Shown: positions 4,857 to 58,668 of the stretch, in pieces
How the letters are laid out: each line of letters starts with the position of its first letter
How positions within the stretch are numbered: position 1 is the first letter of the stretch
Origin: Alcanivorax jadensis T9
GTDB taxonomy: Bacteria > Pseudomonadota > Gammaproteobacteria > Pseudomonadales > Alcanivoracaceae
Direction: 5' to 3'
DNA: 64,000 nt
Assembly: GCF_000756655.1 (NCBI RefSeq)
Contig: NZ_ARXU01000001.1
Location: forward strand, 434,001-498,000
Notes under the pieces: model-generated
Databases searched by the model: none
Told to the model about the DNA's origin: nothing
Seen by the model: the letters and a program-made list of their open reading frames with translations, nothing else
Position numbers and translations under genes: made by a program

Positions 4857-4985
4857 AGCTTCTAGCTTCTAGCTTCTAGCTTCTAGCTTCTAGCTTCTAG
4901 CTTTCAGGATGGGGCCCGCCCCAAACGAAGCGCAACCTCAAGAGCAAAGTGTTTGTTTCACTCGCAGCTAGTAGCTCGTAGCTGC
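4857..4985. repeat. Heptamer-repeat element between pcm and popT
   Basis: Six perfect tandem copies of AGCTTCT plus AGCT lie at 4857-4902. A degenerate partner with the same 7-base step lies at 4965-4985: CAGCTAG, TAGCTCG, TAGCTGC. The right arm begins directly after the pcm stop codon (4986-4988 on the minus strand). Between the arms, GGGGCCCGCCCC (4911-4922) is GC-rich and self-complementary. The element fills the pcm-popT gap. Confidence 0.9.
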
Positions 4986-5648
4986 TTACCGCATCACCCC
5001 ACGCTGGAATGGCACGAAGCGGACCGCATCCAGTGATTGCACATGGAACTGGTCGCCATCACGGTCAACCACAGTGAGGATCTGTTGGCGATCACCGCCC
5101 ACCGGCATCACCAGACGGCCTCCGTCTGCCAGTTGTGACAACAGATCATCAGGAATGTCCGCACGGGCACAGGCGGCCAGGATCGCATCAAAGGGGGCTT
5201 CGCTTTTCCAACCGAAGCCACCATCCGCGTGCTTGAGCTGTACCCGAGCCAGGCCCAGCTTCATCAAACGGTTGCGCGCCTGGTCCTGCAATGGGCGGAT
5301 GCGTTCCACAGAATAGAGGGCGTCACAGAACTGGGCCAGCACCGCCGTTTGATAGCCACAGCCCGTGCCGATCTCGAGCACCTTGGTGGGTCTGCCGTTG
5401 GCGATCAACAATTCGGTCATGCGTGCCACCACCCAGGGCTGGGAAATGGTCTGACCGTGGCCGATGGGCAGCGCCGTATCGTCGTAGGCCTGGTGGGCCA
5501 GGGCTTCTTCGATAAACAGGTGACGCGGGGTATTGCGGATGGCATCAAGCACACGCTCGTCACTGATGCCGGCATCACGCAGCCGTTGCACCAGACGATC
5601 CCGGGTCCGTGCAGAGGTCATGCCGATGCCGCTAAGTTGGATATCCAT
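4986..5648 (-). CDS. pcm: Protein-L-isoaspartate O-methyltransferase
   Basis: Repairs isoaspartyl residues in aged proteins by S-adenosylmethionine-dependent carboxyl methylation; cytoplasmic. The 220-residue product (E. coli Pcm has 208) has the family N-terminal region (NTPRHLFIEEALAHQAYDD), the substrate loop PIGHGQTISQP, and the SAM site EIGTGCGYQTAVLAQ. A longer frame back to a GTG at 5690 exists, but the ATG at 5648 has a good ribosome site (AAGAAG) at proper spacing and gives the family length. Pcm follows truD directly. In most gammaproteobacteria surE sits between them, and here it is absent. Confidence 0.95.
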   Translation of the reverse strand: MDIQLSGIGMTSARTRDRLVQRLRDAGISDERVLDAIRNTPRHLFIEEALAHQAYDDTALPIGHGQTISQPWVVARMTELLIANGRPTKVLEIGTGCGYQTAVLAQFCDALYSVERIRPLQDQARNRLMKLGLARVQLKHADGGFGWKSEAPFDAILAACARADIPDDLLSQLADGGRLVMPVGGDRQQILTVVDRDGDQFHVQSLDAVRFVPFQRGVMR

Positions 5649-5696
5649 CTGTACTTCTTTTGCCTCTGGATGTGCCTCTCGGCGGATCACTCAGGG

Positions 5697-6728
5697 TTAC
5701 CCTGAAGTCTCGGACTCAGGTTTTATAATTTCCGCCATGACTGTCGTGGCAAAAGCGCCTGTGGGCAGCGTAAACGCCAGCTCCAGGCACACTTCCCCTT
5801 CCCTTTCTGCTTGCCAGGACCATTGCAATTCCCGTACCGGCAACCTTGTTGCCCGGCGGGCTTCCTCAACGCCGATGCTGCACAGGCCATCGATCACGGT
5901 GGCATACGGTGCGAGTATCCGCTGTTCCAGTTCCCGGCAAGGGCCAGATGATGCCATGCCCGGCACCCCCGGCAAAGGGGCGGTGGGATGAACCTCACCG
6001 GCAATCACTCTTTCGCCGGCCTCTGTGTCGTCGTCCGCAAGGAACAGGCCGCGGCTACCTTGCGGCTGTAGCAGATCACCGGCCAGTACCCGGTCCCAGC
6101 ATTGCCGGTTAACACGCTCGGCAAGGACCTGGTTGAACAAGTTGCTGCGCACCGCTGACAGCCACAGACCGCGCAGCGCTTTCTTGCGCGGCGCTTCGCC
6201 ACCACACAACCACTCGGTTCCCCGCACCAGGTTGCCGGCACCGCGACCAAAGCGCTGCTCACCAAAATAGTTGGGCACCCCCTGGCGCTCAATGGTGGCA
6301 AGTTGCTGTTCCAGCTGCTGGCGATCTCCCTGGAAATCGGTAACACGAAGCACAAAACCGTTGGCGCGATGGGTACCCCGGTTCAGTTTGCGGCGATGGC
6401 GAAGCCCTTGAAGGCCCCTCAACCCCGGCGGCCAGTCAAACTCCGGGTCCGCCTTGCCGGGCAGATGCAGGCTGAACCACTGACGGGTAATGGCGTACTT
6501 GTCCTTGAGCCCGCTGTAGCCCACCGCCAGGCGATGAACACCCGCCTGTTTGGCCAGTAACAGCGCCACATCCTCAGTATTCCAGCCGGTCTTCTCGATT
6601 TCCAGCCACAGGTGTTCGCCCTCACCTTCCGGGCGCACATGCATGTGCTCGAATACCTGAAAATCTGCCGGAGAGGCTTTCAGCACCCCAGTGGATGCCG
6701 GCCCGCCATGGGCGCAGGGTAGACTCAT
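5697..6728 (-). CDS. truD: tRNA pseudouridine(13) synthase TruD
   Basis: Makes pseudouridine at position 13 of tRNA(Glu) and some other tRNAs. The 343-residue protein matches the E. coli length (349). It carries the TruD catalytic motif [17 protein letters not shown], in which the Asp of GLKDK is the nucleophile, and the downstream [12 protein letters not shown] motif. The start codon overlaps the ispF stop (ATGA), giving a coupled ispD-ispF-truD unit as in Pseudomonas and E. coli. Confidence 0.95.
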
Positions 6729-7204
6729 CGAGACTCCACCAGTACCACGGCCTGCACCGCAATACCTTCCTTGCGGCCGGTGAAACCGAGTTTTTCGGTG
6801 GTAGTCGCCTTGACGGAAACCTGCCCCACCTCACAATCGAGCAGATCGGCAATGCGCTGGCGCATGGCTCTGATATGGGGAGCCAGTTTGGGGGCCTGGC
6901 AGATGACGGTGATATCTGCATTGCCCAATTGCCAGCCGGCCGCTGTCACGTCCCGGTAGATCGCCGCCAACAAGGTGGCGGAATCCGCGTCCTGCCACTG
7001 CGGATCGGTGTCCGGAAAATAGTGACCGATATCCCCCAAGGCCAGGGCACCCAGCAAGGCATCAGACAGGGCATGCAGGGCCACATCACCATCCGAGTGT
7101 GCCTTGAGTCCATGGCTGTGAGGAATTGCCACACCGCCCAGCATCACGTGATCCCCTTCCGTGAACGCGTGCACATCGAAGCCCTGGCCGATACGAATAC
7201 TCAC
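6725..7204 (-). CDS. ispF: 2-C-methyl-D-erythritol 2,4-cyclodiphosphate synthase
   Basis: Fifth step of the MEP isoprenoid pathway, a trimeric zinc enzyme. The product has 159 residues, the same as E. coli IspF. Metal ligands appear in GQGFDVHAF (Asp and His of DVH) and in the [19 protein letters not shown] motif; the C-terminal [15 protein letters not shown] loop is also conserved. Both ends overlap neighbours by four bases (ispD stop and truD start), a tight translational coupling. It uses the product made after IspD, its upstream neighbour. Confidence 0.97.
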
Positions 7205-7914
7205 AGCATGTTCTCCTCGTCGCCCAGCTGGCAGGCCAGATAGAAACGGGCCAGTGCCAGATCTTCCGGGACGGTAACCTTGATATTGTCGCTATGACCC
7301 GCCACCAGCGCCGGACGGCGTCCCACTCTTTCCATGGCAGACGCTTCATCGGTAATACCGGCCAGATCACCTTGCAGGGCATCGTGCAACGCACGAGCAG
7401 GGAACAACTGCGGCGTCAGCGCCCGCCAGATGCAGTCGCGATCCAGAGTGGCGGCAATATGGTTGCCATCATCGGCTTGCTTGATGGTATCCACCACCGG
7501 CAACGCCAATATCGCACCCTGACTGTCGGTCTGGTCGAGCAGGTTCTGAATATCTGACAGCCGTACCAGAGGCCGGGCCATATCATGAACCAGTACCCAG
7601 GCGTTTTCTCCACCCAACTCCAGCGCCCTGGTGACGCCGTTGCGCACGGATTCGGCGCGGGCGGCTCCGCCGCTAACAGTGGCAATACGCGAATGCGTGG
7701 AGACACCCAGCGTCGGCCACCAGGGATCCTGCACGGATACGGCAACCAACACACGGTCGATGGGGGCAAATGATAACAAACGATTGAGGGTATGCTCGGC
7801 CAGGGTCTTGCCGGCCAGTGACAGGTACTGCTTGGGAAAACCCGCCCCCATGCGCTCACCGATACCGGCAGCCGGTACCACCGCATAGAGAGGGCCGTTA
7901 ATGACAGGATTCAC
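7201..7914 (-). CDS. ispD: 2-C-methyl-D-erythritol 4-phosphate cytidylyltransferase
   Basis: Third step of the MEP pathway, forming CDP-methylerythritol from CTP. The 237-residue protein has the nucleotide-binding N-terminus [19 protein letters not shown], then VHDMARPLV and TDEASAMER, all typical of IspD. The start is a GTG at 7914 that overlaps the ftsB stop (GTGA). CTP comes from PyrG, encoded in the same run of genes. Confidence 0.96.
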
Positions 7915-8273
7915 TCACCGCCCCGGGGTTGTTCGAGAATCAGGAAAAAACTTTCACCGTCGCGGATCATGCCCAGATCCTTGCGAGCAATCTCTTCCAC
8001 CGCTTCGGTGCCCTGCTTGAGATCCTTCACGTCGGCGGCCATCAGCCGGTTGCGTTCGTTCAGTTTGGCATTGCTCTGCTTGAGTGTGGCTACCTCTTTT
8101 TCCAGCGTCGCCACATGCCTCAGACTGCCCTCACCAAACCACAGCCGGGCCTGCAGGCCGACAAATACCAGAGCCAACAGGGCAATCACAATCTGCCTGG
8201 CGGGAGACAGCTGCATGGCCTCCCGCTTGCCAAATTCCTTCCCTGCCTTGCTGGTTCTGGTATCCGGCATCAT
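7911..8273 (-). CDS. ftsB: Cell division protein FtsB
   Basis: Small bitopic divisome protein that forms a complex with FtsL and FtsQ. There is a short cytoplasmic N-terminus, one membrane segment (about residues 25-43, RQIVIALLALVFVGLQARLW), the FtsB-like WFGEGS turn, and a periplasmic heptad coiled coil ending in RKDLGMIRDGESFF, which is highly characteristic. The open frame gives 120 residues from an ATG at 8273, abutting the eno stop. A second ATG at 8216 gives 101 residues, closer to E. coli FtsB (103), and has GGGAGG just upstream, although close. Either start is possible. Confidence 0.9.
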   Translation of the reverse strand: MMPDTRTSKAGKEFGKREAMQLSPARQIVIALLALVFVGLQARLWFGEGSLRHVATLEKEVATLKQSNAKLNERNRLMAADVKDLKQGTEAVEEIARKDLGMIRDGESFFLILEQPRGGE

Positions 8274-12082
<3,809 letters not shown>

Positions 12083-12124
12083 CTAGTGGGTTGGTAGCAC
12101 TCTCACCAGTGTAACCGGCACCAA

Positions 12125-12160
12125 TAAAAAAACACCCTGCACGCATGACACGGGCAAGGG
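12125..12160 (-). terminator. Rho-independent terminator or attenuator upstream of pyrG
   Basis: Read on the minus strand, a GC-rich stem (CCCT..GC..CG pairing with CG..GC..AGGG, one bulge and one mismatch) is followed by TG and seven Ts. It lies after recQ and only about 55 bases before the pyrG start. It could end recQ transcription or sit inside a pyrG leader as an attenuator. No clear promoter was seen between it and pyrG. Confidence 0.6.
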
Positions 12161-12399
12161 GCTTTCTGAATCGGGTTGGCCAGCTACGCAAGTGATGGTT
12201 GAACACCTGAAAATTCAGGGGCTTGCGCTACATCAGGACGGGAGGAAATGCTAACAGAAGGCGCCCCTCGCCTCAATCGGAATCGCTCTCGGGAGCGTAA
12301 AAAGTGGCGCGGGCTGATGCATGGCGCAGGTCCACCCTGAGTGGCTCAGGCGTTATTCTGTCTACGGATGCCGCTTTCAACGCTCAGTGGATTGTGGGG

Positions 12400-12452
12400 T
12401 GCGAGTTTCGAAATGGAAAACCGGCCTGACCTTTCGTGACTCGCAACTCCCC
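12400..12452. repeat. Heptamer-type inverted repeat in recQ-pyrG gap
   Basis: TGCGAGT TTCGAAA at 12400-12413 faces TTTCGTG ACTCGCA ACTCCCC at 12432-12452. The arms are inverted and fall into 7-base units. Short and degenerate, but built like the other heptamer elements of the window and sharing ACTCGCA with the copy at 42309. Confidence 0.5.
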
Positions 12453-12515
12453 GAGGCAACGCTGAATTACCTGCACTGCGCCAGGTCGCCGGAATCGAAC
12501 CCTGTGTTCCCGTCG

Positions 12516-17253: not shown

Positions 17254-17296
17254 CAGCTTTTAGCTCGTAGTTAGAGGGCTCGTAGCTAGAAGCCGC
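17254..17296. repeat. Heptamer-repeat element after dnaE
   Basis: Units read CAGCTTT, TAGCTCG, TAGTTAG, AGGGCTCG (8 bases), TAGCTAG, AAGCCGC. The array ends 2 bases from the dnaE stop codon. The TAGCTCG unit is the same as one unit of the element beside pcm at 4972-4978, 12 kb away. Confidence 0.8.
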
Positions 17297-17298
17297 TA

Positions 17299-35573: not shown

Positions 35574-35752
35574 TGTTAATACTCCACTTTGGGTTAGGCC
35601 TCCACGCCCCCGCATAAACCCAACCAGCACCCTGTAAACAGGAATACCAGCACCCGGAGCTATGTGACGGGGCATGTGTGATTTCCTTCCCCACCCAACG
35701 GCGGTTACAATGCGGCACTTGTTGCCACATGGCCGTCGGTGAGCGGGAAAGC
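35574..35752 (-). promoter_or_regulatory. Putative rpsB (S2) autoregulatory leader
   Basis: About 180 transcribed bases precede rpsB. In known gammaproteobacteria the rpsB leader folds into a structured RNA that S2 binds to repress rpsB-tsf. Here a small hairpin with a GGGTGCTGG repeat (two copies around TTCCTGTTTACAGG) and a GC-rich GGGGGCGTGGAGG block occur shortly before the start. Length and place match; the fold was not computed. Confidence 0.5.
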
Positions 35753-40600: not shown

Positions 40601-40605
40601 CATCG

Positions 40606-40781
40606 CCGTAGGAGCGTCGCTGGCGGCGCGATCAAAAACCAGGATCAAAAGCGATTTCACCACAGAGGGCACAGAGCACACAGAGTAAAACCCGTCTTTT
40701 CCTCAGTGATCTCTGTGCCCTCTGTGGTAAACAGCGCTTTTCAGGTTATGGGCTATCGCACCGCCAGCGAGGCTCCTACGG
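40606..40781. repeat. REP-like inverted pair with nested nonamer repeats
   Basis: A 27-base unit beginning CCGTAGGAGC at 40606-40632 returns inverted at 40755-40781 with 25 of 27 matches. The GTAGGAGC...GCGAT pattern is that of Pseudomonas-type REP sequences. Inside is a second inverted pair (40655-40676 with 40711-40731), made of CACAGAG-containing units repeated every 9 bases. It fills the dapC-yffB gap. Confidence 0.85.
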
Positions 40782-40803
40782 AAAGGCTCGAAGAGGAATA
40801 CAC

Positions 40804-41154: not shown

Positions 41155-41182
41155 ACGTCAGACGCCTGACGTCCGACGCATT
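41155..41182. repeat. Heptamer-repeat element after the yffB-like gene
   Basis: Four 7-base units in phase, ACGTCAG, ACGCCTG, ACGTCCG, ACGCATT, start 4 bases after the stop codon at 41149-41151 and end shortly before the dapD ribosome site. Degenerate but clearly period 7. Confidence 0.7.
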
Positions 41183-42255: not shown

Positions 42256-42349
42256 CTGTAGGAGCACCTCTCGAGGTGCGAACAAAGGCCAGAAGCGAGT
42301 AACTCGTGACTCGCAACCACCCTTCGCACCTCAAGAGGTGCTCCTACAG
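42256..42349. repeat. REP-like inverted pair enclosing a heptamer array
   Basis: CTGTAGGAGCACCTCTCGAG... at 42256-42282 and its inverted copy at 42323-42349 match in 26 of 27 bases. The interior carries heptamers GCGAGTA, ACTCGTG, ACTCGCA at 42295-42315. Each REP unit has its own palindrome (CACCTC/GAGGTG). It lies between dapD and dapE. Confidence 0.88.
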
Positions 42350-46920: not shown

Positions 46921-48519
46921 ATGACCGCGCAAGAAAAACTGGATAGCAAAACCGTACTGGACACCAACCCGGCCACCGGCACCGCCGTGGCCGAGCTGAA
47001 TGAAACCGATCTGGCCAAACTGCCCGAGATCATGACCCGGGCCCGTGAAGCCCAGGCGATCTGGGCGGCCAAATCGTTCAAGGAACGGGCTCGCCATATC
47101 ACCATGATGCGCAGCTACATTGTCGACCGCGCCGACGACCTGGCTCGCACCGTCAGCGAAAGCAACGGCAAGACCCTTACCGATGCCCTGGCCACCGAAG
47201 TGCTGCCCTGCGCCCTGGCCTGCAAGTGGTATGCGAACAACGCGGAAAAATATCTGAAAGAGAAGAACCGCCCCGGCGGTAGCATCCTGTTCTTCAACAA
47301 GAAGACCCACATGCTGCGTGTACCACTGGGCGTGGTGGGCATTATCAGCCCCTGGAACTATCCGCTGTCGATCCCCTTCGGTGAAATCGTCATGGGCCTG
47401 ATGGCGGGTAATGCCGTACTGCTGAAAGTGGCCGCTGCCACCCCGGCAGTCGGGCGCGCCATCGAGCAGATCATCGCCGCCGGTGAATTGCCTGAGGGTC
47501 TGTTCCATCACATCGTCGGCTCCGGCTCCAAAGTGGCCACTGGTTACTTTGAGAATGGCGTGGACAAGCTGTTCTTCACCGGCAGCGTCCCCGCCGGCAA
47601 AACCCTGATGGCCCAGGCCGCTGAAACCCTCACTCCGGTATCCCTGGAGCTGGGCGGCAACGACCCCATGCTGGTGCTGGAAGATGCGGACCTGGAACGG
47701 GCCACCAACGGTGCCGCCTGGGCCGGTTACCAGAATGCCGGTCAAAGTTGTGGCGGTGTGGAACGGGTGTATGTGGTGGACGCGGTCTACGACCAGTTCG
47801 TGGATCTACTCGCCAAGAAGACCCGCCAGCTGCGTCACGGGGTAGGCTGCAACGATTTCAATGTAGATATCGGCAGCCTGACCACTGCCGGCCAGCTTCG
47901 CACCGTGCAGCAACACCTGGAAGATGCCCTGGCCAAAGGCGCCCGTATCGAAGCCCAGTCCCGCCCGGTAGGCAACGTGGAAAACGGCTTCTTCCACCCG
48001 GCGACGCTGCTGACCAATGTCACCGACGACATGCTCACCATGTGCGATGAAACCTTCGGCCCCCTGATTGCCGTGCAACGCGTGGCTAACGAAGAAGACG
48101 CCATCCGCAAGGCCAACGAATCCAAGCTGGCACTGACCTCCTCCGTGTGGACCAAGAACAACAAGCGTGGCCGCGCCATTGCTGCCCGTCTGCAGTCCGG
48201 GGTCACCACCATCAATGATCACCTTTACAGCCACGGCCTCTCCGAAACCCCCTGGGGCGGCTGGAAGGAATCCGGCATCGGCCGCACCCACGGCCCGGAA
48301 GGCCTGGAGGAGATGACCCAGGCCAAAGCGGTCAACTGGGACATCCTGCCCTCCAAGCGAAACATCTTCTGGTACCCCTTCGACGAAGCCACCTACAACG
48401 GCATCAAGAACGCCCTGCACTTCGTCTTCCCCAAAGGCCTCGGCCAGATGCTCAGCGCCTCACTGAAACTCACCCCGTTCCTGGTGAAGAAAATGTTTAC
48501 CAAATGGAAAACGGATTGA
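46921..48519 (+). CDS. NAD(P)-dependent aldehyde dehydrogenase with C-terminal tail
   Basis: Oxidises an aldehyde to the acid. The 532-residue protein has the cofactor and catalytic features of the ALDH fold: the Asn in ISPWNYPLS, FTGSVPAGK, the general-base Glu in LELGGNDPM, the nucleophile Cys in NAGQSCGGVERV, and ETPWGGWKESGIGR near the end. The last 45 or so residues form an extra tail with hydrophobic and basic stretches (FPKGLGQMLSASLKLTPFLV), which may hold it at a membrane. In an alkane degrader a fatty aldehyde would be a likely substrate, but that is inferred. It is alone between a pump operon and a terminator. Confidence 0.88.
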   Translation: MTAQEKLDSKTVLDTNPATGTAVAELNETDLAKLPEIMTRAREAQAIWAAKSFKERARHITMMRSYIVDRADDLARTVSESNGKTLTDALATEVLPCALACKWYANNAEKYLKEKNRPGGSILFFNKKTHMLRVPLGVVGIISPWNYPLSIPFGEIVMGLMAGNAVLLKVAAATPAVGRAIEQIIAAGELPEGLFHHIVGSGSKVATGYFENGVDKLFFTGSVPAGKTLMAQAAETLTPVSLELGGNDPMLVLEDADLERATNGAAWAGYQNAGQSCGGVERVYVVDAVYDQFVDLLAKKTRQLRHGVGCNDFNVDIGSLTTAGQLRTVQQHLEDALAKGARIEAQSRPVGNVENGFFHPATLLTNVTDDMLTMCDETFGPLIAVQRVANEEDAIRKANESKLALTSSVWTKNNKRGRAIAARLQSGVTTINDHLYSHGLSETPWGGWKESGIGRTHGPEGLEEMTQAKAVNWDILPSKRNIFWYPFDEATYNGIKNALHFVFPKGLGQMLSASLKLTPFLVKKMFTKWKTD

Positions 48520-48521
48520 GG

Positions 48522-48685
48522 CAGTGAATAGTTAACAATTAATAGTGAACAGTTTCGCGGAACAGGTTTGAACTGTTTTGAAACGCAAGAGGCCGCGTCC
48601 AAATCATGGACGCGGCCTCTTTGTTTTCAGTCCAGAAGGCGCGAAACCGCGCCGCTGTTAACTGTTCACTATTAACTATTCACTG
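48522..48685. repeat. Heptamer-repeat inverted arms around a terminator
   Basis: The left arm 48522-48554 reads in units CAGTGAATAGTTAA, CAATTAA, TAGTGAACAGTT. The right arm (48655-48685), read in reverse, is CAGTGAATAGTTAA TAGTGAACAGTT AACAG. The two differ by exactly one 7-base unit (CAATTAA). The right arm includes the last codons and stop of the DyP gene (AGTGAATAG). A terminator lies in the middle. Confidence 0.9.
48589..48627 (+). terminator. Rho-independent terminator after aldehyde dehydrogenase
   Basis: GAGGCCGCGTCC and GGACGCGGCCTC pair over 12 bases around a 7-base loop, followed by TTTGTTTT. It serves the plus-strand ALDH gene and possibly also the facing DyP gene, though the T-run on that side is poor. 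Confidence 0.9.
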
Positions 48686-49746: not shown

Positions 49747-52248
49747 ATGACACCTTGGCTTGGCCTGGATCGCCTGGGCTTCTTCCTGATCCGCATTTTC
49801 CTGCGTTTGTGCACACGTGCTAACGCGCTGCCTTCCAACCCTGACGAACTGCAACTTGCCCCCAATACCCCGGTGGTCTATGTGCTGCGTGATCGCTCTG
49901 CCGCCGATGCAGCAGCAGCGGATCAATCCGCACGACAATTGGGCCTTGCATCTGCACTGCATGGGTTGACGCTGGGCAAAAGCCACCTGAGCCATAGTTA
50001 CTTCCAGCTGTACCGGCGCAAATTCAGTAATGGCCGGCAGCGAACCCCCGTGTCACCGCCACGGCTGGAAAAACTGGTCAGCGCACTACGCGCCAATCCC
50101 GAAGCCGATGTACAGCTGGTGCCGGTATCGGTGTTCTGGGGCCGCCGTCCGGAAAAGGAAAGCTCTCTGTGGCGCATTCTGTTTTCCGACAACTGGTCGC
50201 CGGCGGGTTTCATCAAGAAATTCTTTATCATCGTCACCCAGGGCCGGCAGTTGTACGTCCATTTCAGCAAGCCCATGTCCCTACGCACCCTGGTGGATCA
50301 GTGCCCCACGGACGAACAGACCGTGCGCAAGGCCTCCCGCATTCTGCGTGTGCATTTTCGCCGTCAGCAGGAAGCCGCCATCGGCCCGGATCTGTCGCAC
50401 CGTCGCACCCTCACCAATACCGTGGTGGACTCCATCCCGGTACAGGAAGCCATCCGCGCCGAGGCCCAGCGCCAGGAAACCAGTATCGAGAAGGTGGAAG
50501 CCAAGGCTCGCCATTACGCCATGGAAATCGCCGCGGATTACTCCCATACCGTCATTCGGTCTCTGGAGTTGTTCCTGAACTGGGTCTGGAACCGGCTTTA
50601 TGCCGGGGTCAGGTTGTACAACATGGACAACCTGACCAAGGTAGCCGGTGATCACGAAGTGATCTATGTGCCCTGCCACCGCAGTCATATTGACTACCTG
50701 CTGCTGTCATTTGTGGTATTCCGCAATGGCCTGGTACCGCCGCACATCGCCGCCGGCATCAACCTGAATATGCCCATCGTCGGGACTATCCTGCGACGGG
50801 GCGGTGCTTTCTTCATGCGCCGCAGCTTTCGTGACAACCCCCTGTACGCCACCGTTTTCAGCGAATACCTTCATACCATCACCGTACGTGGTTACTCCAT
50901 CGAGTACTTCGTGGAAGGTGGGCGCAGCCGTAGCGGCCGAATGTTGAAGCCGCGCACCGGTATGCTCGCCATGACTCTGCGCAGCTTTCTGCGTGATGCC
51001 CGCAAGCCGATTGCCTTTGTGCCGGTTTATGTGGGCTATGAGAAAGTGATCGAATCAGGCTCCTATATCGGCGAGCTGCACGGCAAGAAAAAGCAGAAGG
51101 AATCTGTCGGCGGGCTGATGAAATCCCTGGCGGTGCTGCGCAGTCACTTCGGCCAGGTGCACGTGAATTTCGGTGAGCCCATCAAGCTGGTGGACTTCCT
51201 CGACGAGCATCACACCGCCTGGCGCAGCGAAGACCTGGCTGCCGATGAAAGCCCAGCCTGGTTCAAGCATGTGGTCAATGAACTCGGACAGGAAGTGGTG
51301 GAATCCATCAATGCCGCCGCCGTCGCCAACCCGATCAACCTGCTCAGCCTGGCCCTGCTGGCGTCGCCCAAACACACCATGGATGTGGCCCAGTTACGCC
51401 AGCAGCTGAACCTCTACATCGCCCTGCTCAAACAGGCTCCCTACAGTGACAGCGCCTCCATCGCCACGGATGATGCTTCAGCCATCATCCAGTATGGGCT
51501 GGACAACGAGTTCCTGGAGCGCATCGAGCACAAGCTCGGCGATGTGGTCACCACCGATGAAAAAACGGCCCTGCAGATGGCCTATGTCCGCAACAACAGC
51601 CTGCACCTGTTTATTCTCCCCGGTCTGATCTGCTCGCTGGTGATGAACGCTCGCTCTATCAGCATTGACACCCTGCAGAGCATGGTGCATTTGCTCTACC
51701 CCTTCCTGCGCAATGAATACTATCTCCACTGGCAGGACGGCGACGACCTGTCCCGGGCGGTCAGCAAGACGGTGGATGTGCTGGAGAAGGAACAGCTGAT
51801 CAGCCGCGAAGACCATTGTCTGCACGGCGCCCCTATCCACACCCATGAATCCGACATGCTGGACCATCTAGGCCAGACGGTCATGCCGTCTCTGGAGCGT
51901 TACTATCTGACCATTCGCCTGCTGGTTCAGTACGGCTCAGGCATGCTCACCGCCGACCAGCTGGGGGAACTGGCTCACCAGACCGCGCAACGACTGTCGC
52001 TGCTCTACGAGTTCAACTCTCCAGAATTTTTCGACAAGGTGGTGCTGAAAAACTTTATCAGCCAGTTGTACGGTACCGGCCTGGTCACCACGAACGATGC
52101 CGGCGCCCTGGTGTTTGACGAGAAACTGGAATCGCTTGACGATGAAGCCCGCCGTATCCTCAGCCCGGATATCAGCGACGCCATTCAACGGGTGACGCGG
52201 GTGACAGACATTGAGCACCTGGTGGAGCCGGCCTCCTCTGCTTCCTGA
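49747..52248 (+). CDS. plsB: Glycerol-3-phosphate 1-O-acyltransferase
   Basis: First step of phospholipid synthesis, acylating glycerol 3-phosphate at the inner membrane. The 833-residue product matches E. coli PlsB (807). Acyltransferase motifs: CHRSHIDYLLLSF (HX4D, motif I) near residue 315, GGAFFMRRSF (II), FVEGGRSRSGRML (III) and VPVYVGYEKV (IV). The N-terminal 300 residues and C-terminal 350 residues are PlsB-type helical regions. Monocistronic, ended by a two-way terminator. Confidence 0.97.
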   Translation: MTPWLGLDRLGFFLIRIFLRLCTRANALPSNPDELQLAPNTPVVYVLRDRSAADAAAADQSARQLGLASALHGLTLGKSHLSHSYFQLYRRKFSNGRQRTPVSPPRLEKLVSALRANPEADVQLVPVSVFWGRRPEKESSLWRILFSDNWSPAGFIKKFFIIVTQGRQLYVHFSKPMSLRTLVDQCPTDEQTVRKASRILRVHFRRQQEAAIGPDLSHRRTLTNTVVDSIPVQEAIRAEAQRQETSIEKVEAKARHYAMEIAADYSHTVIRSLELFLNWVWNRLYAGVRLYNMDNLTKVAGDHEVIYVPCHRSHIDYLLLSFVVFRNGLVPPHIAAGINLNMPIVGTILRRGGAFFMRRSFRDNPLYATVFSEYLHTITVRGYSIEYFVEGGRSRSGRMLKPRTGMLAMTLRSFLRDARKPIAFVPVYVGYEKVIESGSYIGELHGKKKQKESVGGLMKSLAVLRSHFGQVHVNFGEPIKLVDFLDEHHTAWRSEDLAADESPAWFKHVVNELGQEVVESINAAAVANPINLLSLALLASPKHTMDVAQLRQQLNLYIALLKQAPYSDSASIATDDASAIIQYGLDNEFLERIEHKLGDVVTTDEKTALQMAYVRNNSLHLFILPGLICSLVMNARSISIDTLQSMVHLLYPFLRNEYYLHWQDGDDLSRAVSKTVDVLEKEQLISREDHCLHGAPIHTHESDMLDHLGQTVMPSLERYYLTIRLLVQYGSGMLTADQLGELAHQTAQRLSLLYEFNSPEFFDKVVLKNFISQLYGTGLVTTNDAGALVFDEKLESLDDEARRILSPDISDAIQRVTRVTDIEHLVEPASSAS

Positions 52249-52268
52249 GACCGGCAACCGTAGCTGAC

Positions 52269-52302
52269 AAAAAATACCCGCCAAATGGCGGGTATTTTTA
52301 TT
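52269..52302. terminator. Bidirectional terminator between plsB and the beta-barrel gene
   Basis: AAAAAATACCCGCC and GGCGGGTATTTTT pair around AAAT. There is an A-run before and a T-run after, so it works for both the plus-strand plsB and the minus-strand gene facing it. Confidence 0.93.
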
Positions 52303-52322
52303 TCCGGGCACACAGCCAACCG

Positions 52323-53039
52323 CTAGATGGCAATGGAAACACCCAGGCTGTAGTTGATGCTCTCCAGATCCATTTCCAGTTCCCGGGACAGTGCCACCGT
52401 ACCGCCAACCCCATTGGCCGTATCACCACTTTCCACGGTACCGGCATCCACATAGAAAATGGAGAAATCCACGGAGGCCGCATCACTGAGCCAGTAGGCA
52501 ACACCCCCACCAAATTTGAAGGCAAATTCGGTGCTGCCACCGTCTTCAATGGTTGCAGATGCGCCACTAACGAAAACGGTCATATCCTCCAGTTCGTTAT
52601 CGGCAAGACCGATACCCGCCCCTACATAGGGGTCAAAGGCCCCGGTGCCACGGTCATTCATGAAGTGGTAGTAGCCATTGATCATGAGAAGATGACTGGT
52701 GGTCTTGGCCTCGAACGTCCCCGCCTCTGAAGCCCCGCCGGAGCTGACGGTAACGCCATCGTCTTCCTTGGACGCCAGAGAGAAATCCAGTGCAACTTCT
52801 GCGCGCAAGTTGGGGGAAAGCCAGGTACCACCTGCTACGCTAAGATAATCCGTACCACCCGGATCGTACCCATCGATGGCCAGAGTCTCTTCTGAAGGAC
52901 TCGCAACCGTAAAATCCATATCTTGTTCATCGTAATCGGCAAGGCTATAGGCAAACCGCAGGTAGTTATCGGCCATGGCAGATGCCGGCAAAACCAGAGG
53001 CAATGCCGCAGTCAACGCAAGCAAACGGAAGGTATTCAT
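52323..53039 (-). CDS. Outer-membrane beta-barrel protein (OmpW/OmpA-barrel-like)
   Basis: A 238-residue precursor with a clear Sec signal (about 1-23, PASAMA before DNYLRFAYS). The mature part alternates polar and hydrophobic residues with Gly- and Tyr-rich strands (LRFAYSLADY, LLMINGYYHFMND, FDPYVGAGIGLAD, FKFGGGVAYWLS), as in 8-stranded barrels of the porin/OMP_b-brl family. Function unknown. It ends LGVSIAI and not with an aromatic residue, which is unusual for a BAM substrate. It stands alone on the minus strand. Confidence 0.8.
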   Translation of the reverse strand: MNTFRLLALTAALPLVLPASAMADNYLRFAYSLADYDEQDMDFTVASPSEETLAIDGYDPGGTDYLSVAGGTWLSPNLRAEVALDFSLASKEDDGVTVSSGGASEAGTFEAKTTSHLLMINGYYHFMNDRGTGAFDPYVGAGIGLADNELEDMTVFVSGASATIEDGGSTEFAFKFGGGVAYWLSDAASVDFSIFYVDAGTVESGDTANGVGGTVALSRELEMDLESINYSLGVSIAI

Positions 53040-53185
53040 TATCTTATCCTCATGCTTAAAGTGTCATTCCTTAACAGCAACACATCAGGTGCACCTTTGA
53101 CGCTATCAAAGCGACATCATTGTGTCTATTTTATGATCAATTCATGAATGCGTTACAGGATGGACTAGTTGCTCAGCGATTCGGG

Positions 53186-53908
53186 CTACTCATAGACATC
53201 AAAACGAATAGCCTTGCCGGCAATCTGATGATGAGGGCTGCGTTTTGCCAGCGGTTCAGCCTTGCCGGGCCGTTTGACCACCACCCGATGCGGATCAAGA
53301 CCAAGCGCCCATTCCAGCAACGCCGCTTCTTCGTTCTGATCGGGATAGGCTGCCAATTGCTGAAGCCATTGCAGGTCTTTTTTTACCGCCGCACTTTTGT
53401 CCCGCGATGGAAACATGGGATCAAGATAGACCGCATGCAGCGGCGGCAAGGTGTGCGCGCCAGCATCCGCGCAGGGTAGCAACTGCATGGCGGCAGCGAG
53501 CTCTGCAGGCGCCCGCCGCAAGCCATCAGCCAGCATGGCATGGAGAATCGGCGAGCGTTCCGCCAGCAATACCGGAAACCCGGCCATGGCGATCAGGGCC
53601 GCATCCCGGCCCAGGCCAGCGGTGGCATCCAGAACAGTAAAGGTTTCTTCCCGGGGTTTTCCCAGCGCCTTGATCAACCGCTCGTGGCGAACCCGCTCCG
53701 CCGTCAGTCGGTAGCCCTGTTTGCCATCATTAAAGCTGACGCTCAAGGGAGTTTCCCGCCCTTGCGGTCGCCACAGGCTGAGGCGCTCCTCATGCCAGCC
53801 CAGCACCAGCGGCAGGCCCAGTTCCACCGCTCTGTCCGCCTCTTCTACCGGCGTACCGGGAAGCCCGTCAGGGCACCCGGGTAACAGACCCAGCACCGTA
53901 GCCAGCAT
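53186..53908 (-). CDS. rsmJ: 16S rRNA (guanine1516-N2)-methyltransferase
   Basis: Methylates G1516 of 16S rRNA. The ATG at 53908, 4 bases past the uppP stop, gives 240 residues (E. coli RsmJ 250). The SAM-binding motif TVLDATAGLGRDAALIA and the catalytic-type YLDPMFPSRDKSA are family-specific. A longer frame reading back into uppP has no good start signal. Paired with uppP in one transcription unit. Confidence 0.92.
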   Translation of the reverse strand: MLATVLGLLPGCPDGLPGTPVEEADRAVELGLPLVLGWHEERLSLWRPQGRETPLSVSFNDGKQGYRLTAERVRHERLIKALGKPREETFTVLDATAGLGRDAALIAMAGFPVLLAERSPILHAMLADGLRRAPAELAAAMQLLPCADAGAHTLPPLHAVYLDPMFPSRDKSAAVKKDLQWLQQLAAYPDQNEEAALLEWALGLDPHRVVVKRPGKAEPLAKRSPHHQIAGKAIRFDVYE

Positions 53909-53912
53909 GGAA

Positions 53913-54710
53913 TCAGGCCAGCCACGCCAGTAGCGCAACGCCAAGAACCAGGCGGTACACCACAAACGGCAGCATGCCGATGCGCTCAAGCAGACGAATG
54001 AAGAACACAATGGTCAGATACGCCGTAATCGCACTGACCACCGCACCCAGGGCCATCAGTCCCCAGTCCACCGCTACCTGCTGCTCGACAAGATCCTTTG
54101 TCTTGAGCAATCCCGCACCAAGAATGACTGGAATGGAAAGCAGAAAGGAAAAGCGGGCAGCGTCCTCGCGCTTGTAACCCAGCGCCAGTGCCGCCGTGAT
54201 GGTAATACCGCTACGGGAGGTACCGGGAATCAGTGCCAGAGCCTGGGCCAGGCCGATAAAAATGGCGCCAATGACCCCCAGTCTCACCAGACTGAACTGG
54301 CGCTTGCCGAACGCATCGGCAGCCCACAGCAACGCGCCAAACACCAGGGTAGTAACGGCAATCACCAGTGCAGAACGCAACTCCCGTTCAATCCAGTCAT
54401 CACCAACAAAGCCGAACACCACCGCAGGAATGGTAGCCAACACCACCAGCAGTCCCAGTTTCAGGTCGTCGTTCATGGTGCGCTGGGTCACCGCTTTGCC
54501 GGCACCGCCGACCATGGCAAAAAGATCCCGGCGGTAGTAGGCCATCACCGCCATCAGGGTGCCCAGGTGCACGGCCACATCAAAGGCCAGCCCCTGATCG
54601 GGCCAGCCCAGTACCTGAGACGGCAGAATCAGATGGGCAGAACTGGAAATGGGAAGAAACTCGGTAAGTCCCTGTATCAGGGCAAGCACCAGGGCCTGGA
54701 ACCAATCCAT
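53913..54710 (-). CDS. uppP: Undecaprenyl-diphosphatase
   Basis: Dephosphorylates undecaprenyl diphosphate on the outer face of the inner membrane, returning the carrier made by UppS to the monophosphate form. The 265-residue polytopic protein has the two active-site signatures QGLTEFLPISSSAHLIL (about 14-30) and PGTSRSGITITAAL (about 171-184). BacA-type. PopT, encoded at 3.9 kb, may flip its product back. Confidence 0.97.
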   Translation of the reverse strand: MDWFQALVLALIQGLTEFLPISSSAHLILPSQVLGWPDQGLAFDVAVHLGTLMAVMAYYRRDLFAMVGGAGKAVTQRTMNDDLKLGLLVVLATIPAVVFGFVGDDWIERELRSALVIAVTTLVFGALLWAADAFGKRQFSLVRLGVIGAIFIGLAQALALIPGTSRSGITITAALALGYKREDAARFSFLLSIPVILGAGLLKTKDLVEQQVAVDWGLMALGAVVSAITAYLTIVFFIRLLERIGMLPFVVYRLVLGVALLAWLA

Positions 54711-54730
54711 GGAATGTCCTTATTGAATGG

Positions 54731-54765
54731 AACGTCAGTAACGGGAACGAGTTGCGAGGGGCGAT
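54731..54765. repeat. Heptamer-like element upstream of uppP
   Basis: Five units with 7-base phase: AACGTCA, GTAACGG, GAACGAG, TTGCGAG, GGGCGAT. A nested hairpin with GACGGG/CCCGTC outer and GCGC inner stems follows at about 54771-54804, then TATCGCAACGTT, which partly mirrors the array. Degenerate; the weakest long example. Confidence 0.5.
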
Positions 54766-54817
54766 AATCAAGACGGGTGAAGCGCTTTGAAGCGCGATTC
54801 CCGTCTATCGCAACGTT

Positions 54818-55255
54818 TTACTCTTCTGTGGCGGTGATTTTGTAACCCTGCAAAAATTCCGGGGGCATGCGGCGGGGCTTACCGGAATCCAGTGCCACAC
54901 ACACCCAACGGGTGCGGCCGCGCAGCAGGGTTCGCCCGTCTGATTCGCGAACAATCTGGTAACGGCGCGTGATACTGATGCGCTGGTCGTTTTCCACGAT
55001 CCAGGTACCGATCTTCAGGTGTTCACCTTCAAAGGCCGGCGCCAGGTAATCCACTTCGGTATGCCGGGCCACCATGCCCCGGTTGAGCTTCTGGTACAGA
55101 TCCCAGCCCAACCCAAGGCTGGCGGTATGATCCCAGGCAATTTTCTCCATGAAACGCAGATATTCGGTGTTGTTCACATGCCCCATCACGTCGATGGCTT
55201 CGGCCGGCACAGTCACCGCCAGTTCATGGACATTGGGAAGGTCCCAGTTGATCAT
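54818..55255 (-). CDS. Acyl-CoA thioesterase, 4HBT/YbgC type
   Basis: Hot-dog-fold thioesterase of 145 residues, probably cleaving an acyl-CoA in the cytoplasm. The catalytic Asp is in VPAEAIDVMGHVNNTEYLRFMEKIAW, with the HVNN motif of 4-hydroxybenzoyl-CoA thioesterases. ITRRYQIVRESDGRTLLRGRTRWV is the family's second half. It overlaps tsaB (ATGA), which may reflect co-translation but gives no clear functional link. Natural substrate unknown. Confidence 0.88.
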   Translation of the reverse strand: MINWDLPNVHELAVTVPAEAIDVMGHVNNTEYLRFMEKIAWDHTASLGLGWDLYQKLNRGMVARHTEVDYLAPAFEGEHLKIGTWIVENDQRISITRRYQIVRESDGRTLLRGRTRWVCVALDSGKPRRMPPEFLQGYKITATEE

Positions 55256-55926
55256 CGTACAGCTCCCTGAATTACCTGATCACGAAGATAGACCGGCTGC
55301 GCCAGTTCTGCACTGACACCCTGCCCGCGCTGGAAACCGGATAATGCCAGCTGCGCCACCGCTTTCGCATGAGGATGCACGTCAGCCTCACAGTGACTTG
55401 CGCCATAGGCCTGGCAAAGGGCCTCACGATAGACCAGCCCGGAGCCGATAATCATCCAGTCTTTTTGTGGCAGAGATGGCAAGGTATCCGGGTGAAACAA
55501 GCCGTCACCGAGCACGGGGCTGGCAACGCCATCCTCACAGGCATAGGCACCCAGATAGACCTCTCCCATACGCGCATCGAACACCGCGATCACATCCCGG
55601 TGTGGCGTCGTCTCCTGGGCGCTGAGTGCACAGGCCGCCAGAGTAGACACCCCGATCACCGGCAAGTCCGCCGCAAAGGCCAGCCCCTGGGTAACCGCAG
55701 CCGCGACCCGCACACCGGTAAAGGCACCGGGACCATGGCCAAAGGCAATGCCGTCCAGCTGGCGAAGCGACAGTTGCGCTTCCGCCAGCAGTGCTTCCAC
55801 CATCGGCAGCACCCGTTCGGTTTGACGACGTGGCGCCTGCTCGAAATATTCGAGCACCTCGTCGCCATCCATGATGGCCACCGAACAGGTTTCACCGGCG
55901 GTTTCCAGAGCCAGAATTCGTGTCAT
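55252..55926 (-). CDS. tsaB: tRNA t6A biosynthesis protein TsaB
   Basis: Partner of TsaD and TsaE in making threonylcarbamoyl-adenosine at position 37 of ANN-decoding tRNAs. The 224-residue protein (E. coli 231) is an ASKHA-fold inactive homologue of TsaD: ILALETAGETCSVAI, FGHGPGAFTGVRVAAAVTQGLAFA. Overlaps both neighbours (ATGA with yoaA stop and with thioesterase start), giving a yoaA-tsaB-thioesterase coupled unit, similar to E. coli yoaA-tsaB. Confidence 0.95.
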   Translation of the reverse strand: MTRILALETAGETCSVAIMDGDEVLEYFEQAPRRQTERVLPMVEALLAEAQLSLRQLDGIAFGHGPGAFTGVRVAAAVTQGLAFAADLPVIGVSTLAACALSAQETTPHRDVIAVFDARMGEVYLGAYACEDGVASPVLGDGLFHPDTLPSLPQKDWMIIGSGLVYREALCQAYGASHCEADVHPHAKAVAQLALSGFQRGQGVSAELAQPVYLRDQVIQGAVR

Positions 55927-57878
55927 GATTCCATCTGTTCCGTTGTCTGCCCTTCTTGCTGCCGGGCCAGGTAATCGAAAAACCGTTGTACCACGTCCAG
56001 CTTCCGGGTGCGGGTCATGTTGGGCAGACTGTTCACAAAGAGTTTTCCGTAGCTGCGCGTCAGCAGCCGGGGATCCGCCACCACCAACAGGCCGGTATCC
56101 TTGGGATCACGAATCAGTCGGCCGGCACCCTGGCGCAATGCCAGCACCGCCTGGGGCAACTGATAATCGCGGAAGGCATTGCCACCATTGCGATTGATAT
56201 GTTCAATGCGTGCCGCCGCCACCGGGTCACCCGGCGAGCCGAACGGCAGTTTATCAATAATCACGCAACTGAGTGCCTCGCCACGCACATCAATGCCTTC
56301 CCAGAAACTGCTGGTGCCCAACAGCACCGCGTTACCTTTTTCCCGGAAGCTGTCCAGTAACTCCCGTCGACCGGACTCCCCTTGCACCAGCAACGGATAG
56401 TCCAGACGGGGGCGTAGCAACTGGGCCGCTTCCCGTAATGCTCTGTGACTGGTGAAAAGGAAAAAAGTGCGACCCTTGGCGGCATTGATGACCGGCACCA
56501 TGGCATCGCAAAGCGCCGCGGTATAGCCGGGATCGTTCGGCGCCGGCAGGCCGTCAGGGGCATAAAACACCGCCTGGCGTTTGAAATCGAACGGGCTTTC
56601 CAGCCGCAGGGTGGTAGCCGCGTCCATGCCAAGGCGCTTCTGGATATGCTCAAAGCGCCCGCCCACAGACAGAGTCGCCGAGGTAAGCACCCAGCTGCAC
56701 GGCTGACGCTCGCGCTGGGCACGCAGCTGGGCTGCCACGGACAGGGGCGTGCTGTGCAGCACCACAGTCCGTTTGAAGGTTTCAAACCAGTACACCCGGT
56801 TGGGCTGTTCCCCTTTCAGGTAGGCCGCCAGGCAGTCCACTTGCTCGCTGGCACGACGGGCACAGGCCTCCATTCCCCGGCTGGCCTTGGCCAGGGGGCC
56901 AAGGAACATTTCCAGATCGCGCAGGGCCGTTAGCAGGGTCTCGCCCGCTTCGATGACAGTCTCTTTCTCCGCCACCTCGGACCAGGGCTCCCGACGCTCG
57001 CCGTCGCCCAGGCTCAGGCGCAGATCCAGGCAGCCCTTTTCCACCGCTGCAATCAACTGGTTCAGACGCGCCAGATCGGCAGCGGTCTGCCCGGCTTCGG
57101 ACAAACTATCACGGCCCAGTTCCTGGACCTGTCGGGTGCTCAAGGTATCGCCGAAAAAAGCAGCAGCGATTTCCGGCAGCTGATGCGCCTCGTCGAAGAT
57201 CACCGTGTTGGCACTGGGCAGCAGTTCCGAGGCCGAGCCGTTACCGCGCAAGGCCGCATCGGCAAAGAAAAGATGATGATTGACCACCACCAGGTCCGCT
57301 TCCTGGGCTTCCTTGCGGGCCTTCATCAGCGGGCATTCCTGATAGTTGGGGCAATCTGTGCCGAGACAGTTGTCGGCAGTACTGGTTACCCAGGGCCATA
57401 CCGGCGCGTCTTCGGGAATCTGTTGCAGCTCGGCGATGTCACCGGTTTTGGTACGACCAGCCCAATGGGCCACGATCTGCAACTGCTCGGCGGTTTCCCG
57501 AGTCAGAAAACGGGCCTCTTCCTGATGCAGGGTCATCCGGTAGGGACAGAGATAATTGGCGCGCCCTTTCAACAGCGCCACCTTGCGCGGCAGCCCCAGA
57601 GCTTTCTTGACCAGCGGCACATCCTTGAAAAAAAGCTGATCTTGCAGACTCTTGGTGCCGGTGGACACCAGTGTCGGCCCCTCCGACAACAGGGCCGGCA
57701 CCAGGTACGCCAGGGTCTTGCCGGTACCGGTTTCCGCCTCGACCATCAGGGTGCCACCGGTGCCGATCACCGCATCCACTGCGTCCGCCATGGCCAGTTG
57801 CGGTTCACGGGGCTGATAGCCCGGCAAAAGCGGCGCAAAGCGCGTCAGATCGGTAAGATGGTTACGGGCGCTGGTCAC
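55923..57878 (-). CDS. yoaA: ATP-dependent DNA helicase YoaA (DinG/XPD-like)
   Basis: Superfamily 2 helicase with an iron-sulfur cluster, linked in E. coli to DNA repair with HolC. The 651-residue product (E. coli YoaA 636) has Walker A EAETGTGKTLAYL, four cluster cysteines (CPYRM near 110; CLGTDCPNYQEC near 170-180), the DEAH motif FDEAHQLPE, and the C-terminal motifs SFWEGIDVRGE and RQGAGRLIRDPKD. It starts at a GTG (57878) with AGGA upstream. The tsaB linkage favours YoaA over DinG. Confidence 0.93.
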   Translation of the reverse strand: MTSARNHLTDLTRFAPLLPGYQPREPQLAMADAVDAVIGTGGTLMVEAETGTGKTLAYLVPALLSEGPTLVSTGTKSLQDQLFFKDVPLVKKALGLPRKVALLKGRANYLCPYRMTLHQEEARFLTRETAEQLQIVAHWAGRTKTGDIAELQQIPEDAPVWPWVTSTADNCLGTDCPNYQECPLMKARKEAQEADLVVVNHHLFFADAALRGNGSASELLPSANTVIFDEAHQLPEIAAAFFGDTLSTRQVQELGRDSLSEAGQTAADLARLNQLIAAVEKGCLDLRLSLGDGERREPWSEVAEKETVIEAGETLLTALRDLEMFLGPLAKASRGMEACARRASEQVDCLAAYLKGEQPNRVYWFETFKRTVVLHSTPLSVAAQLRAQRERQPCSWVLTSATLSVGGRFEHIQKRLGMDAATTLRLESPFDFKRQAVFYAPDGLPAPNDPGYTAALCDAMVPVINAAKGRTFFLFTSHRALREAAQLLRPRLDYPLLVQGESGRRELLDSFREKGNAVLLGTSSFWEGIDVRGEALSCVIIDKLPFGSPGDPVAAARIEHINRNGGNAFRDYQLPQAVLALRQGAGRLIRDPKDTGLLVVADPRLLTRSYGKLFVNSLPNMTRTRKLDVVQRFFDYLARQQEGQTTEQMES

Positions 57879-58020
57879 ACGATGTCCTGAGGATGACAGA
57901 AAGGAAGCAAGCCACAGAGCATAGCATTAGACGCCACAAGCAGCACGCCTCACGCAACGCGGAAAACCCGCCAACGGACGGTTTCTGTGCTCAGGCATCC
58001 CACACCAACGGAGGCACCCC

Positions 58021-58560
58021 ATGGACTACACCCTGATCATTCTGGCTGGCGGCCAGGGAAAACGGGTCGGCGGCGCCGACAAGGGATTAGTGGAGCTGGA
58101 TGACAAGCCGCTGATCGCTCACCTGCTGGATCACGTGGCACCCTCCCCGACCCGTATCGTAATCAGTGCCAACCGGAATCAGGCCACCTACCGGCATTGG
58201 GCCGACCAGGTGGTCAGTGATGAACGGGACGGGTTTCAGGGGCCCATGGCCGGCCTGGAAGCAGCACTGAATGCCAGCCAGGGGCTCTGCCTGTGCCTGC
58301 CCTGCGATCTGGTGCAGGCTCCCACCTCACTGCCCGGCGACCTGCTGAAAAAAGCCGGCCCGGAGCACATCTGCGTGGCCCAGGATCCGATCCGCCGCCA
58401 ACCTCTCTGCCTGGCGTTGCATGCGGAGCACTGGCGGGACTCCCTGCACACCTATCTGGATAGTGGTGGCCGCAGCGCCTACGGCTGGCTGGATCAGGTA
58501 TCGGTTCACCCGGTGGCCGTGGCCTCGCCTCTGCAGAACCTGAATCACAAAGAGATATAA
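58021..58560 (+). CDS. mobA: Molybdenum cofactor guanylyltransferase
   Basis: Adds GMP to molybdopterin-Mo to form the bis-MGD cofactor. The 179-residue protein (E. coli 194) has the nucleotide-binding start IILAGGQGKRVGGADKGLVEL, GFQGPMAGLEAAL, and the metal-binding LPCDLVQAP. Its presence implies bis-MGD enzymes (such as nitrate reductase or formate dehydrogenase) elsewhere in the genome. Divergent from yoaA. Its stop codon is followed directly by a heptamer array. Confidence 0.93.
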   Translation: MDYTLIILAGGQGKRVGGADKGLVELDDKPLIAHLLDHVAPSPTRIVISANRNQATYRHWADQVVSDERDGFQGPMAGLEAALNASQGLCLCLPCDLVQAPTSLPGDLLKKAGPEHICVAQDPIRRQPLCLALHAEHWRDSLHTYLDSGGRSAYGWLDQVSVHPVAVASPLQNLNHKEI

Positions 58561-58668
58561 GTAACGAGGAGCGAGGAGCGAGGAGCGAGGAGCGAGGAGC
58601 GAAAAGATTAACCAAAACAACCCGTCGTGGCTCTGCTTTTCGTAACTCGTAACACGCTCCTCGAAACT
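58561..58668. repeat. Heptamer-repeat element after mobA
   Basis: GTAACGA followed by five perfect GGAGCGA units (58568-58602) starts on the first base after the mobA stop. An inverted partner lies at 58641-58668: CGTAACT, CGTAACA, CGCTCCT, CGAAACT. Its CGCTCCTCG is the complement of CGAGGAGCG in the left array. Confidence 0.9.

Follow-up and report, generated by a model that had tools for sequence, protein, structure and literature searches.

In a 64,000-nucleotide stretch of Alcanivorax jadensis T9 (C1:434001-498000, from a host genome of 3.63 Mb in 29 contigs; hereafter, the window), dispersed palindromic gene-end elements with period-7 arms are a real feature of the DNA. On a wider reading our confidence is evenly balanced, namely that the heptamer sites of the window are copies and remnants of a palindromic intergenic superfamily, in which one family, type T, forms a two-way gene end and slippage re-homogenises the arms and grows long arrays. 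The superfamily plan that we propose would consist of an arm of approximately four heptamers, GCGCG, a linker, a central hairpin, a second linker, CGCG, and an inverted arm. Below, G000 is the own genome and G001-G016 are other genomes of the host genus. For one window protein, two relatives, at 96% and 93% identity, come from Alcanivorax MAGs.

The type-T element at window 48520-48685 is ~163–166 bp long. Elements of this type combine arms of mostly four heptamers with a GCGCG junction; their linkers vary, and their central hairpin is conserved. The left arm of the window element (48522..48552, plus strand) contains four class-B heptamers (AGTKAAY) and 3 nt, and begins 2 nt past the stop codon at 48517-48519. 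The hairpin (48587..48621, AAGAGGCCGCG...CGCGGCCTCTT), a putative two-way intrinsic terminator, has an A-rich 5' side and a T-rich 3' side, and the inverted right arm, again of class B (48655..48685, minus strand), overlaps the stop codon of a minus-strand gene that faces the element and ends at 48676. The 31-nt arm length is our own cut; the flanks show four units in most arms and three in some. Among the matches listed, this element has dispersed relatives across the genus at 72–82% identity, with 46–81 matches per genome in 15 of 17 genomes, 19 in G001, and 22 in G002 (both strands counted; 40 candidates scored per genome). A type-T profile found 41 copies in ~1.96 Mb of five genomes, a sample that had also supplied the 24 elements behind the profile. 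The earlier suggestion of a dispersed family, made from the window alone, thus holds. With strict filters and 64 candidates scored, a sequence-only model found type T in 29/45 family genomes (16/16 in the host genus, 12/13 in a second genus, 1/1 in a third) and not in five other genera of the family. Three class-D elements from G012 are likewise matched by the type-T model over its full length (E 4e-6 to 5e-5), and a 147-bp class-D query found full-length copies at 69–75%. Two type-T copies in 200 kb of G001 (L115 487-644 and L116 8402-8532) have decayed arms, possibly a natural loss of arm upkeep.

Several lines of evidence define the elements. First, the period is specifically seven. In an unselected 764-kb sample of the own genome (C1:1-400000, C2:1-280000, the window, and C3:1-20000), 29 tracts reached a score of at least 12 at lag 7, compared with 0–3 at every lag from 1–6 and 8–13 and 15 at the harmonic lag 14; for intergenic tracts only, the counts were 25 at lag 7, one at lag 9, and none at lags 4–6, 8, and 10–13. 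Dinucleotide shuffling of 441 intergenic stretches gave no tract in 19 of 20 runs and one tract in the other, against 27 observed. At a score of at least 10, 200-kb stretches of sister genomes held 16 (G016), 15 (G003), 30 (G012), and 2 (G001) lag-7 tracts, with 0–3 at lags 4–6 and 8–11. The inverted arms of the sequence-only reading were also borne out: in the own genome, intergenic inverted arms had autocorrelations of 0.38, 0.42, and 0.35 at lags 7, 14, and 21 and 0.17–0.29 at other lags, and inverted pairs with period-7 arms occurred in 36/398 intergenic regions, compared with 1, 3, 1, and 6 for periods 5, 6, 8, and 9. Both the 7-base period and the proposed comparison of lag 7 with lags 5, 6, 8, and 9, when run on tracts, therefore stand on a strong lag-7 excess. 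A result that weighs against the period claim is the simple rate of matches across the whole intergenic DNA of the own genome, which shows no clear lag-7 excess (0.263 at lag 7, equal at lags 9, 14, and 18, and 0.267 at lag 3); the signal is thus confined to tracts. Most tracts are the inverted arms of dispersed palindromes and not stand-alone microsatellites. Tandem 7-nt units are present above chance, as in heptanucleotide simple sequence repeats, and many arms are short and imperfect.

Second, the heptamers fall into recurring classes. From seeds chosen by eye, and in a grouping that is our own, units of 93/95 elements could be assigned to approximately nine classes, lettered A to I, with A' as a companion to A. 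Each class has fixed positions and two to three variable ones, and the same positions vary between elements of a class (in class B, positions 4 and 7 vary in 24/25 and 23/25 elements). The idea of a different heptamer at each site was accordingly right in that units differ between sites and too strong in that some nine classes recur; likewise, the sequence is free in that classes differ and two to three positions vary, but only within about nine classes that each keep fixed positions.

Third, the two arms of an element match in class. In 66 elements, arms were complementary in every 7-step register, with values of 0.87 in the best register (zero by choice), 0.69–0.73 at shifts of ±7 and ±14, and 0.17–0.27 at other shifts. 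Both arms could be assigned to a class in 28/41 type-T copies (one arm in 10, none in 3), and the classes were concordant in 25 of these 28, compared with a mean of 9.7 and a maximum of 17 after shuffling; this count, like the gene-context counts below, includes some loci more than once, from two or three sisters. Of the discordant copies, one was E/F and two were B/A' at a single locus. Among 20 type-T copies, with pairs of core identity >0.9 dropped, same-class pairs had identities of 0.746 in the core and 0.833 in the arms, and different-class pairs 0.695 and 0.422. Because different-class pairs keep the core while the arms fall, arm class is largely decoupled from the core, and cores can be aligned across classes. 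The conserved hairpin probably carries much of the core match between type-T copies.

Arms that pair in every 7-step register would also be expected if they were maintained as a stem, of RNA or DNA, closing the intergenic unit, for 3'-end protection, processing, or cruciform formation, and 17 of 37 predicted pairs, from the hairpin and the class-defining arm positions, have changed on both sides. However, the arms of one type-T copy were 0.843 identical to each other, no better than the 0.853 for same-class swaps (16 copies, some orthologous), so they share class and not sequence. We rejected individual arm–arm base pairing as the kept feature on this ground, since same-class swaps match equally, and consider the stem explanation unlikely. 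The type-T hairpin itself stays paired through double changes.

Fourth, the elements lie at gene ends, as mapped with gene calls from a home-made script and arm edges from ungapped alignments. Type-T copies were located between convergent genes in 36 of 41 cases, against a background of 214/1366 adjacent pairs, and elements of classes A/A'/B/C were found there more often (22/31) than those of other classes (22/62; Fisher p 0.002). The proposed preference for stop codons was confirmed by mapping of element edges: 73/135 stop-side edges fell inside the arm or ≤4 nt outside it, and, for class-assigned elements, 106/133 stop-side edges fell inside the arm or within 15 nt, compared with 9/53 start-side edges within 15 nt. 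Moreover, 48 of the 58 class-callable type-T arms (82 arms in all) offer stops in all three frames when read inward from the gene, compared with 7/58 read outward and a shuffled fraction of 0.23; for all heptamer elements, the corresponding values were 62/190 inward, 17/190 outward, and 0.10. Since 7 equals 1 modulo 3, any stop-bearing unit closes all frames within three units. Truncation of genes by the elements was considered and rejected, as 8 of 10 ortholog comparisons, made for genes whose stop forms inside an arm, differed by ≤1 residue, one by 6, and one by 30 (an unexplained gene call); this comparison is weakened because several orthologues themselves carry an element.

These observations are most readily explained if type T is a two-way stop-and-terminate module, which we regard as its most likely role. 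Each type-T arm, mostly of class A, A', or B, would offer the neighbouring gene stops in all three frames, and the central hairpin, which by its sequence combines a predicted stable stem, an A-rich 5' and T-rich 3' flank, and a position between convergent genes, would end transcription from both sides as a two-way intrinsic terminator. Selection would keep the stops and the terminator, leaving the exact heptamer free provided that the unit holds a stop. The common class of the two arms could be explained if alleles arrive whole through insertion or recombination and slippage inside an arm then re-homogenises its units, a route of homogenisation that we infer.

Sister genomes differ in element presence, orientation, and class. 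At locus 4857, for example, the 17 genomes include class E (G000, G016, G009), class F (nine genomes), class D (G012, G005), class I (G004), a decayed element (G001), and no element (G002). The counterpart of the 48520 element in G003, a 91% match, is inverted relative to its gene. This inversion, the presence or absence of elements at orthologous sites, the dispersal of copies that vary little in length and carry terminal inverted repeats, and the variation of the same positions across elements of a class (class B positions 4 and 7) could also be produced by elements resembling miniature inverted-repeat transposable elements (MITEs). Here, the arms would be terminal inverted repeats with several 7-bp sites for a putative transposase or recombinase, and gene-end placement would reflect insertion tolerance, with many arms supplying stops in any frame. 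We view this as a tentative possibility. Against it, no non-orthologous core pair exceeded 0.74 identity among 46 elements (orthologous pairs ranged from 0.73 to 1.00, with ends trimmed differently); among the matches listed, copies of the 48520 element at different loci were ≤82% identical, the same locus in sisters apart; inspection by eye of the sequence printed beside 49 type-T arms of class A/A'/B revealed no target duplication; arm class and core are largely uncoupled; and heptamer arms were lacking at four examined Y1 transposase loci, in a survey that included no systematic search for a gene enclosed by matching arms. Recent transposition was rejected because the sample contains no close non-orthologous pair, and we do not file the element as a MITE because near-identical recent copies are missing. 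The sequence-only reading had set the family apart from repetitive extragenic palindromic (REP) and MITE families. That separation holds only in part: the heptamers are arms of near-constant-length dispersed palindromes, which look MITE-like, though inspection by eye showed no target duplication and the sample contained no near-identical paralogue. The Correia/NEMIS and RUP MITEs (Delihas 2007, PMC2229807) are similarly palindromic elements of ~100–200 bp, and the 155-bp Correia repeat and RUP are described as having stops in all frames; they differ in that terminal repeats and target duplications are tabulated, and 7-nt periodic arms are not described in the relevant passages of that paper.

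The same genomes contain dispersed intergenic palindromes of another sequence, GTAGGAGC..., which surround a Y1 transposase gene and which we take to be REP elements or bacterial interspersed mosaic elements (BIMEs). Could the heptamer elements be REP/BIME elements moved by REP-associated tyrosine transposases (RAYTs)? Y1 transposase matches are present in 16/17 genomes of the genus, and the Y1-less genome, G001, is almost free of heptamer tracts (2 in 200 kb). However, G001 still holds the two type-T copies with decayed arms, and the examined Y1 loci are flanked by other repeats or none: the one examined of three own-genome loci and L198 by GTAGGAGC- or GTGGGAGC-type REPs, L199 by another repeat, and L200 by none. 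At these four of ~60 Y1 matches, no lag-7 tract scored above 8.5, no heptamer arms were seen, and no association of the elements with RAYT genes was evident. We rejected this origin on that evidence and consider it very improbable. Pairs of the REP family GTAGGAGC...GCGAAC lie in many intergenic regions (e.g., window 42256-42349), and REPs also surround a Y1 transposase match near L029 15110-15861, whose frame contains TAA.

Long arrays showed a replication-strand signal. G003 is a closed genome, in which the sign of the GC skew switches near 0.75 and 2.75 Mb. In sampled DNA of G000 and G003, AAGCTAC or AAGCTAG arrays with a score of at least 16 had the unit on the leading strand in 12/12 cases, in ++, --, and convergent settings; 5 of these 12 lay in stretches fetched because they held such arrays, on either strand. 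Among the G003 matches listed, the bias holds with two exceptions, both minimal 18-nt matches, at 1.07 and 1.26 Mb. Of 15 gaps within tracts of aligned sisters, 3 were multiples of 7 (7, 28, and 140 nt), 7 came from comparison of different or inverted elements, and 5 were 1–3 nt. Near-perfect TAGCTTC copies, ~48 in tandem, lie beside a stop codon at L055 9424-9763 (G000 C12) and would serve as a convenient marker of gained and lost units.

The lag-7 excess, the 7-, 28-, and 140-nt length differences between homologous arms, and the strand bias of AAGCTAC/AAGCTAG arrays would all fit plain heptanucleotide slippage arrays, generated by 7-nt polymerase steps with neither element nor function. We think this quite unlikely as a full account: it does not predict arms of approximately four units, inverted pairing, an alignable shared core, convergent context, or class concordance, and only 3 of the 15 tract gaps are multiples of 7. 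Plain slippage is thus disfavoured for the elements and likely for the long arrays, which would be runaway products of replication slippage and probably arise in this way. The earlier proposal of a mechanism that writes 7-base units is not demonstrated. Replication slippage can account for the long arrays; it does not explain the inverted pairs or the class matching.

Some of our own results weigh against the combination of stops, terminator, and slippage. Inward stops are few or lacking in classes F, G, and I, whose arms follow the same pattern nonetheless, and on average fewer than two frames are closed in classes D, E, and H; because of F, G, and I, we rejected a stop array as the sole explanation. 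Nor do stops account for the choice of 7, since all frames would likewise be closed by other periods that are not multiples of 3. Slippage leaves unexplained the inverted arms of approximately four units and the shared class with differing detail. Finally, strand bias is not general among arrays: ACGAGCT arrays, also class E, were leading in 2 cases and lagging in 3 (the three within one 20-kb stretch), and other array classes occur in both orientations.

Period-7 repeats have been described before, with reports of a bacterial excess going back to 2007 or earlier (as cited in PMC4692102). In Xanthomonas, GGGAATC repeats mostly have four units, form 70 and 75 inverted close pairs, are intergenic at a mean of 28 nt from the 5' neighbouring open reading frame (ORF), and were read as G-quadruplexes; long repeats occur at different genes in two species, and no bias towards the leading or lagging strand is reported (Rehm et al. 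2015, PMC4692102). As judged from the relevant passages of that paper, the likeness is close, with 7-nt units of conserved and variable positions, approximately four units, inverted pairs, and placement near the upstream ORF end in both systems. The Xanthomonas repeats, however, are one G-rich, G-quadruplex class without strand preference, whereas the elements described here include approximately nine classes, have a core, and comprise two strand-biased array types; the class consensus units contain no GGG and thus no G-runs capable of forming a G-quadruplex. The Beggiatoaceae TAACTGA repeats, one favoured sequence, are direct (with one indirect repeat reported) and lie mostly just upstream of start codons (MacGregor 2015, PMC4679880), in contrast to the inverted pairs at stops seen here. 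The same paper reports a slippage proposal by Mrazek for heptanucleotide repeats. Our arrays have the period-7 excess, and the proposal of slippage, in common with the long heptanucleotide simple sequence repeats of Mrazek et al. (2007; cited in both PMC4679880 and PMC4692102), and those citations mention no element architecture. A full-text literature search, with subscription papers mostly outside its reach, found no multi-class architecture of paired heptamer arms, and six sample arm strings matched nothing in the full-text papers searched.

Earlier period-7 cases, as far as these sources present them, were explained singly, by G-quadruplexes, translational regulator sites, or slippage. Many heptamer classes in one architecture and one genus argue for a greater importance of period and symmetry than of sequence, and make the period-7 question testable; a natural comparison is provided by G001, whose few sampled copies have decayed arms, and two array types give a replication-strand signal. 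A bolder and doubtful idea, to which we give a small chance, is that a class-specific trans-acting system, either a short-template enzyme or a binding factor of evolving specificity, rewrites or selects both arms to one class independently of the core. Bacteria might then mark gene ends generally with a fixed period and exchangeable heptamer codes, with Xanthomonas GGGAATC and Beggiatoa TAACTGA as single dialects.

Outside the host genus, single-class patterns, each blind to the other classes, are rare: class E in 9/46 family genomes, all in the host genus; class F in 2/114 genomes of the taxonomic class, own included; and class B in 3/199 genomes of the phylum, own included. In other genera of the family, 200 kb of sequence, with coding DNA counted, held 6 tracts at lag 7 and 11 at each of lags 6 and 9, and 120 kb held no lag-7 tract. 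In another genus of the family, L178 12608-12743 and L186 4295-4400 have paired heptamer arms, in one case of an AGTGAAA class around a different hairpin. Class B also occurs in 52 IMG/VR stretches (L213-L264), where 156 lag-7 tracts, up to 66 of them the query arrays, compare with 3–20 at lags 4–6 and 8–11. This suggests heptamer-rich lineages elsewhere, and only 4 of the 66 query arrays had a strict class-B inverted partner. A plasmid search with a class-F element matched the neighbouring gene alone and found no relative of the element.

The sequence-only reading had listed eight sites in the window. Three tracts, at 4857-4903, 48655-48684, and 58565-58602, exceed chance by lag 7 alone. Sites 12400, 17254, 42295, and 54731 were missed by lag 7 alone; 17254, 42295, and 54731 are backed by fuller versions at the same locus in sister genomes, and 12400 was seen only by eye. 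Site 41155 is at chance level, with a lag-7 score of 7, for which ~6 tracts per window are expected by chance. At the first site, a class-E arm has expanded into an AGCTTCT tandem array (4857..4903, plus strand), longer than in G016 by 28 nt, or four units; the core lies at 4904..4965, and the unexpanded inverted class-E partner (4966..4983, minus strand) lies 2 nt from the stop of a minus-strand gene ending at 4986. A class-I arm with a GGAGCGA array (58561..58602, plus strand) directly follows the stop at 58558-58560, is paired with an inverted class-I arm at 58641..58663 (minus strand), and is not found at this locus in G016 or G003. Class-E arms at 17255..17294 adjoin a stop, and their orthologues in G016 and G003 differ by 7 nt from each other. 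A class-I remnant nested in a REP pair (42294..42317) is fuller in G003 and G015, and a class-I element at 54731..54772 is fuller in G003 and not present in G012. The remaining sites are a short class-H palindrome of ACGTCAG/ACGCCTG units (41155..41178), at a locus without heptamers in G002, G004, G006, G010, G012, and G014, and, by eye, short class-I-like inverted arms (12400..12449). At gathering scores, Rfam reports only the t44 RNA (RF00127) in the window, at 35593-35698 on the minus strand. Other inverted intergenic families are also present, such as CACCACAGAGGGCACAGAG at window 40601-40803 and CGTAGGGTGCACTGAGCC near C1:221456.

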